Positions 19,477 to 25,717 of a stretch of 64,000 nucleotides of DNA are shown one piece after another. Source of the DNA: Arcobacter nitrofigilis DSM 7299 (GTDB lineage: Bacteria > Campylobacterota > Campylobacteria > Campylobacterales > Arcobacteraceae); NCBI RefSeq assembly GCF_000092245.1, contig NC_014166.1, forward strand, positions 806,001 to 870,000, written 5' to 3'. The notes below the pieces were generated by a model. That model was given only the letters and a program-made list of their open reading frames with translations, was not told the origin of the DNA and made no database searches. A program made the position numbers and the translations under genes. Positions within the stretch are counted from its first letter, which is position 1. Every line of letters starts with the position of its first letter.

Positions 19477-19635
19477 TTAATTCACAAAATAAGTAACTAT
19501 ACTCATAACAGCTATTACGAAAAAAATACTAATAAAAATCTCTTTTAATTTAATAGTAGGATTTAAAATCCCACAATAGGGACATTGTCTTAATTTAGGT
19601 TCTATTTCAGTTTTACAGTTTCTACAAGGTTCTAT
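19477..19635 (-). CDS. Small zinc-ribbon membrane protein with apparent AUA start
   Basis: A 52-codon gene without a standard start codon. The translation shows a zinc ribbon (CRNC then CPYCG, two CXXC pairs 11 residues apart) followed by one membrane helix (about residues 32-50). There is no ATG, GTG or TTG before the first CXXC: a stop codon lies two codons upstream of ATA at 19635-19633. AAAGGA lies exactly 6 nt before that ATA, and a TTGACT-N17-TATATT promoter lies just before it. I infer initiation at AUA. An ATG-to-ATA change or a base-call error would explain it equally well. Function unknown; DUF-type zinc-ribbon/TM proteins of this size are common. Confidence 0.65.
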   Translation of the reverse strand: MEPCRNCKTEIEPKLRQCPYCGILNPTIKLKEIFISIFFVIAVMSIVTYFVN

Positions 19636-19656
19636 TTTTTATCCTTTAAAATTGAA

Positions 19657-19685
19657 AATATACAGCAATATTTTTTTAAAGTCAA
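19657..19685 (-). promoter_or_regulatory. Sigma-70-type promoter for the zinc-ribbon gene
   Basis: On the minus strand TTGACT (19685-19680) and TATATT (19662-19657) are separated by exactly 17 nt. The predicted start of transcription lies about 15 nt before the ATA start codon, just upstream of the AAAGGA ribosome site. Confidence 0.55.
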
Positions 19686-23305: not shown

Positions 23306-24352
23306 TTATTCTATTATCTCTTCATTATTTAATTCGTAAAATTCACTTTGTTTTATGGCATCTTCATTGAAGTATTCCATTTTATTTTCTGCAATATTTA
23401 AATTACCAAATTTTGCTATGTGAAAAACCGCATCGCCTTCTTGTACTAGTGGAATTTGAGATTTTCCTATGATAATTCCATCAAAGGGAGCTAAGATTTC
23501 AAAGCTATTGTCATCTAAAGGTTCATCAATATAAGCAATAACTTCATTCTCTTTTACAATATCACCTAAGGCTTTTATTGTTCTTATCATTCCACTTTCA
23601 CTTGCTCTTATCCATTTACTTACCCTTGAAGTTATTGGTGTCTTACTACCTTTTCGTATAACTTTTGGGAGCATAGAATTTTCTCTTAAAATATTGATAA
23701 TGCCTTTTACCCCAATTCTTATACAGGTCTCATCAAAACGTAGAGCTTCACCTGCTTCATAAAGAAGTATTGGTATACCACTTTCTTCTCCTTCTGCTCT
23801 TAGTGAGCCATCTCTTAATTCAGAGTGCAAAATAACAGGTGCTCCAAAAGCACGTGCTAATTTTAGAGTATATTCATTATCCATATTTGTTCTGATTTGT
23901 GGTAAATTCGATTTGTGAATAGAAGCTGTATGTAAGTCAATTCCTAAATCACATTTTGAAACTATTTCATCAAAAAAGATTTTTGCAATTCTACTTGCAA
24001 TAGAACCTTTACCACTTCCTGGAAAACTTCTATTTAAATCTCTTCTATCTGGTAAGTATCTAGATAGTGTCATAACTCCATATACATTTACAATAGGAGC
24101 AAAGATTATAGTTCCATGAAGTTTTTTTAAAATATTTAGTTTTCTAATTCTTCTAATAATCTCTATACCATTTAATTCATCTCCATGAATTGCAGCACTA
24201 ATAAAAACTATTGGCCTTGTTTTTTTCCCTCGTATTACTCTTATTGGCAAGTTTGTAGGTGTATTATAAAGTTTTGGCAATTCCAAATTTATCTTTATTT
24301 CTTTTCCTTTTGGTACAACAATACCACCAATTACCAAATCACTGCTTTGCAT
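23306..24352 (-). CDS. Succinylglutamate desuccinylase/aspartoacylase-family hydrolase
   Basis: Zinc-dependent carboxypeptidase-like amidohydrolase (M14 AstE/AspA branch). Zinc ligands are visible in AAIHGDELNGIE and DLHTAS, the substrate-binding RDLNRSFPG is intact and the catalytic Glu lies in LYEAGEALRF. The C-terminal 90 residues look like a lipoyl/hammerhead barrel (SGMIRTIKALGDIVKENEV). The 348-residue length is normal for this group. Starting 5 nt after rimK, it probably removes an acyl- or amino-acid-amide group; reversal of RimK-type ligation is the attractive possibility. Confidence 0.85.
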   Translation of the reverse strand: MQSSDLVIGGIVVPKGKEIKINLELPKLYNTPTNLPIRVIRGKKTRPIVFISAAIHGDELNGIEIIRRIRKLNILKKLHGTIIFAPIVNVYGVMTLSRYLPDRRDLNRSFPGSGKGSIASRIAKIFFDEIVSKCDLGIDLHTASIHKSNLPQIRTNMDNEYTLKLARAFGAPVILHSELRDGSLRAEGEESGIPILLYEAGEALRFDETCIRIGVKGIINILRENSMLPKVIRKGSKTPITSRVSKWIRASESGMIRTIKALGDIVKENEVIAYIDEPLDDNSFEILAPFDGIIIGKSQIPLVQEGDAVFHIAKFGNLNIAENKMEYFNEDAIKQSEFYELNNEEIIE

Positions 24353-25291: not shown

Positions 25292-25717
25292 TTATTTTTC
25301 CTCTTTTCTATTACATAAATACTCTTGCGAAACATCAACTAAAAACTTATCTTTTAAAAATCTTCTTCCAATTAACATAGGAAATTTCATATCGGCTCTA
25401 TTTGTTAAAGATATGATACTTTTATATTTTTTACCAAAAAATTCTACACTTACTTTAATAGATGGTCTTATTTGAACTGTTCCATTTGAACTTTTTACTC
25501 GTTTAATTTTATATATGGGCAAAGTCATTCTTTTGCCATGATATGAGGTGTGTATTTCATCAAGTAAAGTAAAACTTACTTTATCTTCTTCTATTTCAAT
25601 ATCATCACAATGTAAAGCGTTTGAATCAGCACCCGTATCTACTTTTGCATCTAAGTCAAACAATTCCAAGTCAAGTATTGAAATACTTTCTTTTCTCCCA
25701 ACTATCTTCTTTTCGAT
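25292..25717 (-). CDS. Retropepsin-like 'ATP-dependent zinc protease' (RimB-type), apparent AUC start
   Basis: Small aspartic-protease-like protein usually encoded next to rimK. The core motif [11 protein letters not shown] and the C-terminal [15 protein letters not shown] are intact. Homologues begin with a strand resembling [11 protein letters not shown], and that strand is present in frame upstream of the first TTG (25669), so the TTG start would cut the domain. The only codon with a ribosome site is ATC at 25717, preceded by AAAGGA and 6 nt. A TATAAT box lies about 25 nt further upstream. I therefore infer AUC initiation and a 141-residue product. It ends 1 nt before rimK and heads the operon. 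Confidence 0.8.

Follow-up and report, generated by a model that had tools for sequence, protein, structure and literature searches.

A zinc-ribbon microprotein gene of Arcobacter nitrofigilis with an apparent AUA start, and AUH-type start codons conserved in Arcobacteraceae

The locus described here lies on the minus strand of a 64,000-nucleotide stretch of the genome of Arcobacter nitrofigilis DSM 7299 (contig NC_014166.1, positions 806,001 to 870,000), which was analysed as a whole and which we call the window. Its features are collected in Table 1. The reading frame consists of ATA, 51 sense codons and TAA and translates as (M)EPCRNCKTEIEPKLRQCPYCGILNPTIKLKEIFISIFFVIAVMSIVTYFVN, a microprotein with a putative zinc ribbon followed by a hydrophobic helix. 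The initial annotation, made from the sequence alone, had described a minus-strand frame encoding CRNC...CPYCG, a helix and a stop, preceded by AAAGGA-N6-ATA with a stop two codons before the ATA, and had noted the lack of any ATG, GTG or TTG ahead of the first CXXC. All of these elements were found in place; the only canonical codons in the frame are an ATG at codon 43 and a GTG at codon 50, both past the zinc ribbon.

Table 1. Features of the microprotein locus and of a second candidate gene in the window (window coordinates).
Feature	Position	Strand	Remarks
Microprotein coding sequence including stop	19477..19635	-	52 residues; ATA to TAA
AUA start codon (putative)	19633..19635	-	ATA 39, ATC 12, ATT 5, ATG 0 in 56 non-redundant homologues
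Shine-Dalgarno (SD) sequence AAAGGA	19642..19647	-	6 nt 5' of ATA, spacer TAAAAA
In-frame TAA two codons 5' of ATA	19639..19641	-	stop there in 19/56 homologues
Stop codon TAA of the microprotein frame	19477..19479	-	read from the sequence
Promoter-like TTGACT-N17-TATATT	19657..19685	-	10/12 consensus matches; count not above shuffles
Zinc-ribbon part C4-C21, CRNC-N10-CPYC	19573..19626	-	4 Cys invariant in 41 homologues; sub-threshold Pfam matches
C-terminal hydrophobic helix, putative membrane anchor	19483..19548	-	residues 30-51; AlphaFold and hydrophobic sequence
RimB-like peptidase, AAAGGA-N6-ATC	25292..25717	-	without usable canonical start; second AUH gene in the window

Coding content, promoter and ribosome-binding site had also been said to agree with one another. 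The coding content and the SD sequence bear this out, but the promoter does not: four promoter-like sites were seen in this AT-rich stretch as compared to 3.0 +/- 1.7 in shuffles, a number within the shuffle range, and the TTGACT-N17-TATATT sequence is weak evidence for the gene. When the homologues were aligned on the start codon, no firmly fixed element was found 5' of the SD, and folding of the RNA at the microprotein start was no better than that of shuffled sequences (z = +1.3). The common gene order around the locus is lon, a hypothetical gene, a rhomboid gene, the microprotein gene and dinB. A functional link between rhomboid and microprotein was considered and rejected: 101 of 104 genomes carry the rhomboid gene but 65 the microprotein gene, which in addition occurs away from the rhomboid gene.

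The 65 genomes with the microprotein, out of 104, are all from Arcobacteraceae; homologues were also found at 17 public loci. An alignment of 41 of them has 11 invariant columns, among which are the four cysteines, PYC-G, L-N-P and a methionine of the helix. The two knuckles (C4 and C7, C18 and C21), with their four putative metal-binding cysteines, are thus unchanged in all 41 sequences, and the conservation of the CXXC frame, on which the initial annotation depended, is established. Compared to its nearest relative the gene has a dN of 0.034 and a dS of 0.25, and pairwise differences are 0.23 at the first, 0.16 at the second and 0.42 at the third codon position. Judged by these comparisons, the coding frame is real and under purifying selection.

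AlphaFold predicts a helix over residues 30-51, the middle of which reaches a pLDDT of about 90 or higher, and the protein is probably membrane-anchored; the ribbon part is poorly resolved (pLDDT about 67). In a fold search all matches were weak, with E values from about 3 upwards, and many were to small zinc fingers of the NZF/RanBP type. The microprotein has the CXXC-N10-CPXCG knuckles of the Pfam families DZR, Zn_ribbon_3, Zn_Ribbon_1 and Zn_ribbon_15. It differs from them in being a single ribbon with one helix, and it stays below all curated cut-offs: the best Pfam zinc-ribbon match scored 19 bits, where the cut-offs are 25 or more. No NCBIfam family fits it. As a default we would guess that the protein acts at the membrane as a zinc-dependent regulator or adaptor.

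To assess the start codon, we read the DNA 5' of the first cysteine in 69 non-redundant microprotein loci. In 56 of these, all from Arcobacteraceae, an SD (AAGGA or AAGGG) is followed by an in-frame ATA (39 loci), ATC (12) or ATT (5), which we refer to jointly as AUH, where H is A, C or U. The spacing between SD and start is 6 nt in 54 of the 56, 4 nt in one and 7 nt in one. Each column of AAAGGA is conserved in 54 to 55 of the homologues, the spacer is variable, and in the start codon itself bases 1 and 2 are invariant and base 3 is A, C or T and in no case G. A second genome of the same genus (G032) also has ATA and a third has ATC. The initial annotation had proposed an alignment of homologues as a check, and it places the start at the same position relative to the SD throughout, with ATG in 0 of 56. 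The scan demanded AT followed by A, C or T, and the remaining 13 loci were inspected individually so that ATG cases were not missed. Relatives that have lost AUH carry a canonical start nearby: one locus (L008) has TTG with an SD, another (L046) has ATG without an SD, and six basal loci (genera g7 and g8) have ATG. The other five, which belong to another family, have ATG or TTG. Within the set of 56, no canonical start lies ahead of the first cysteine in readable frame in 51; one locus (L031) is ambiguous, with an extra TTG at a spacing of 10.

The conservation of an SD with ATA, ATC or ATT in 56 homologues lies far beyond chance. Two features of it bear on selection. On the tree of the microprotein gene, the third base has changed no fewer than 12 times within the AUH clade, and in no case to G. 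As G makes up 6.4% of fourfold sites, the chance of seeing no G in 12 changes is about 0.45, and neutrality is not rejected by the third base on its own. On the other hand, ATG accounts for 82% (404/491) of SD-led canonical starts in A. nitrofigilis, and its absence at the microprotein start is the stronger argument.

The microprotein gene is not alone. The window was scanned for SD-spaced ATH codons, and the RimB-like peptidase of Table 1 was found; its ATC is confined to the genus, where 3 of 3 genomes have it, and other genera mostly have ATG. We then took 1.26 Mb of the A. nitrofigilis genome, including the window, and recorded the codon that follows an SD in coding-like reading frames of at least 120 codons with no ATG, GTG or TTG within 15 codons. 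ATH made up 8 of the 15 SD-led codons in such frames (p ~6e-5), and with looser limits 14 of 32 as against 11% expected (p ~2e-6). By inspection, about eight plausible further AUH genes lie in the 1.26 Mb: uvrB (ATA), proV (ATT), a gene for an HI0933-like flavoprotein (ATA), rimB (ATC), an amidase-like secreted protein (ATT), a transferase-like protein (ATT) and two sensor-like proteins (ATA and ATC). Family matches back the names of uvrB, proV and rimB; the other names come from our reading of the sequence. When all SD sites of the genome are taken together, AUH shows no enrichment at that spacing, and the class is therefore small. No AUH enrichment was seen in a small sample (400 kb) of another genus, and no ATH was found in similarly small samples (200 kb each) of two other families.

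Several candidates were discarded. Positions 24298 and 15254 of the window have an ATG nearby, position 426737 of the genome has one 12 codons further on, and position 113840 of the genome looks antisense. A site near position 96041 of G000:C1 (minus strand) is fragmentary; a piece of a ShlB/HecB-like barrel follows an SD-spaced ATT, no start lies ahead of it, and the gene is apparently broken.

Three of the further genes were followed through the family. For uvrB, 30 Arcobacteraceae loci gave ATA or ATC in 21, ATG in six and TTG in three. When the A. nitrofigilis protein is read from AUA, the UvrB models match it from residue 3 onwards; its first canonical codon comes 47 codons in. In another family of the order, AUH was found in 0 of 29 readable uvrB loci, which have ATG, TTG, GTG and one apparent CTG; in this last locus (L355) AAAGG precedes the CTG, a possible start. 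Two uvrB loci of one genus (L255 and L256) have the same flanks but differ by a single base in the start codon, ATC in one and ATG in the other, and so form a natural test pair. At G083:C1:693320-693421 the 5' end of uvrB is matched in part just ahead of the full gene, as if duplicated. For proV, ATT, ATC or ATA stands at SD spacing in all 26 readable family loci and a canonical codon at that spacing in none of them, and 13 lack any upstream in-frame canonical codon. Outside Arcobacteraceae, proV gave one match in 100 genomes, in a fragmentary genome, and this has AAGGAG-N6-ATC. The HI0933-like flavoprotein gene has AUH in 23 of 26 family loci and ATG in three.

Start codon and SD vary together in these genes. 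An SD precedes 21 of 21 AUH starts of uvrB as compared to one of six ATG starts (p 7e-5), and 23 of 23 AUH starts of the flavoprotein gene as compared to none of three ATG starts (p 4e-4), both p values being inflated by shared ancestry. The three TTG starts of uvrB keep the SD. Every uvrB and flavoprotein locus was assigned to a class, so the AUH class is not SD-positive by omission. These data suggest a trade-off in which a strong SD accompanies a weak codon or the converse, and its direction fits selection on the total rate of initiation.

The third base of an AUH codon pairs imperfectly with the initiator tRNA, and codons of this type are rejected by IF3; the initiator tRNA inserts fMet at whichever start codon is used. 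As the first residue would be the same in every case, it is the rate of initiation and not a residue of the protein that the family would be preserving when AUA, AUC and AUU interchange and AUG is absent. At the microprotein gene, reading of AUA by the initiator tRNA would presumably involve a mismatch at the third base, with help from the strong SD at optimal spacing. Two possible causes peculiar to the lineage were considered. An altered initiator tRNA was rejected because the two identical tRNA-Met(CAT) genes that were found have ordinary initiator features (C1-A72, and an anticodon stem with three G-C pairs). As for IF3, what sets its C-terminal part apart from that of E. coli is largely shared with another IF3 (PDB 2m71) and so does not mark out this family. 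The gene for IF3, infC, is the classical AUH-start gene of other bacteria, and in all 25 readable Arcobacteraceae loci (L102, L104-L133) it has TTG at its start (TTG-AGT or TTG-AAC). The classical IF3 feedback loop is therefore absent from the family, although IF3 discrimination of other genes would not require it.

We consider it probable that AUH initiation at the microprotein gene is real and attenuates its translation, probably through discrimination by IF3. The sequences themselves show the gene, its frame, its SD and the conservation of AUH starts in this and other genes; initiation at AUA, attenuation, IF3 as the discriminator and the membrane location of the protein are what we infer. 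The likely role of the codon would be to hold translation of the microprotein low and sensitive to IF3, in the manner of infC, sigR, cvfC1 and ccpN. The initial annotation had proposed true AUA initiation and called it rare in bacteria; the homologues speak for the initiation, and "rare" needs qualifying in a family where AUH appears at the start of at least four genes.

The main alternative is that AUH initiation is real and merely tolerated: a strong SD suffices, and start codons drift among AUG, AUH and UUG without regulatory purpose. The occurrence of AUH in several unrelated genes would fit such drift, as would uvrB, where of two closely related loci one has ATC and the other ATG, and the third-base changes in the microprotein gene, which by themselves are compatible with neutrality. 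However, with ATG at 82% of SD-led starts, its absence at SD spacing from all 56 microprotein and all 26 proV loci is not what drift would lead one to expect, and the trade-off between SD strength and start codon suggests that the rate itself is selected. We regard tolerance as rather unlikely, though it deserves more weight than the two readings that follow.

In one of these, the ATA would be internal or a chance occurrence, and the protein would arise by readthrough or frameshifting from an upstream reading frame or from a canonical start that was missed upstream. Three loci (L015, L065 and L072) do have an in-frame ATG 12-18 codons 5' of the first cysteine, and short leader frames can be drawn in some Aliarcobacter-like loci. 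These leaders are not conserved in frame, however, and 19 sequences have a stop two codons 5' of the AUH codon; 51 of 56 have no usable canonical start, and in all 56 the SD stands at its fixed distance from AUH. An upstream origin is accordingly very improbable. The other reading, that an ATG gene has suffered a sequencing error or a recent loss of its start and is a pseudogene, has in its favour that ATA and ATG differ by a single base. It is refuted by the homologues, whether as an error, a single mutation or a pseudogene, since AUH recurs in dozens of genomes that were sequenced independently of one another, and purifying selection acts on the protein; we give this reading next to no weight. 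Attenuated AUH initiation thus remains the reading that we prefer.

To our knowledge, only a handful of bacterial AUH-start genes have been characterised. In E. coli, infC and pcnB have AUU starts that limit translation, and infC is autoregulated by IF3; E. coli thus has two AUH genes per genome, whereas A. nitrofigilis has a larger set without infC. In S. aureus, ribosome profiling and reporters identified AUU at the start of cvfC1 and AUA at the starts of ccpN and infC (PMC13009471). Expression from such AUA and AUU starts is about 10% of that from AUG, with values up to 30%, and the starts are conserved among staphylococci, that of ccpN also in B. subtilis (PMC13009471). The three genes resemble the microprotein gene in their conserved AUA or AUU with a strong, well-spaced SD. 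They differ in that the staphylococcal starts are experimental, whereas ours is read from conservation, and in that infC has TTG in Arcobacteraceae. The nearest known case is cvfC1, which encodes a 61-residue putative zinc-finger protein and whose AUU start is conserved (PMC13009471); the likeness lies in the type of start and the putative zinc finger. Streptomyces sigR has a GTC start, repressed by IF3, with a strong ribosome-binding site (PMC5472188). In contrast to the microprotein gene, its codon is not AUH and the effect of IF3 was demonstrated. Listeria monocytogenes has six core genes with fixed non-canonical starts, namely infC (ATT), rnhC (ATC) and four others (PMC13068326). As in Arcobacteraceae, a single lineage has conserved a small number of AUH-type starts, but the Listeria set consists of different genes and lies within one species, whereas the Arcobacteraceae set extends across genera. 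The main text of a Campylobacter jejuni Ribo-seq paper does not mention AUH starts (PMC11955535), and we found none reported in the open-licence literature on start codons of Arcobacter and Campylobacter. The microprotein itself appears to belong to the AUH-start class; it is the family-wide set of AUH genes that may be new in kind.

These observations bear on annotation. A gene caller restricted to ATG, GTG and TTG omits AUH genes or truncates them, and in A. nitrofigilis it would start uvrB 47 codons late. Allowing AUH starts can also reveal unannotated microproteins.

For the family, a start type that is normally rare looks stable and inherited: the microprotein gene keeps a non-AUG start across most Arcobacteraceae genera, and core genes such as uvrB do likewise. 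Arcobacteraceae thereby offer a naturally replicated system in which to ask why inefficient start codons persist beside strong SD sequences and whether IF3 controls the gene set. Our tentative suggestion, which we hold to be possible and well short of probable, is that the microprotein gene, proV, uvrB, the HI0933-like flavoprotein gene and others share control by start-codon discrimination in a family where infC is not itself autoregulated through an AUH start. If this is true, shifts in the activity of IF3 or in initiator tRNA would adjust DNA repair, the uptake of osmolytes and functions of the membrane in concert.
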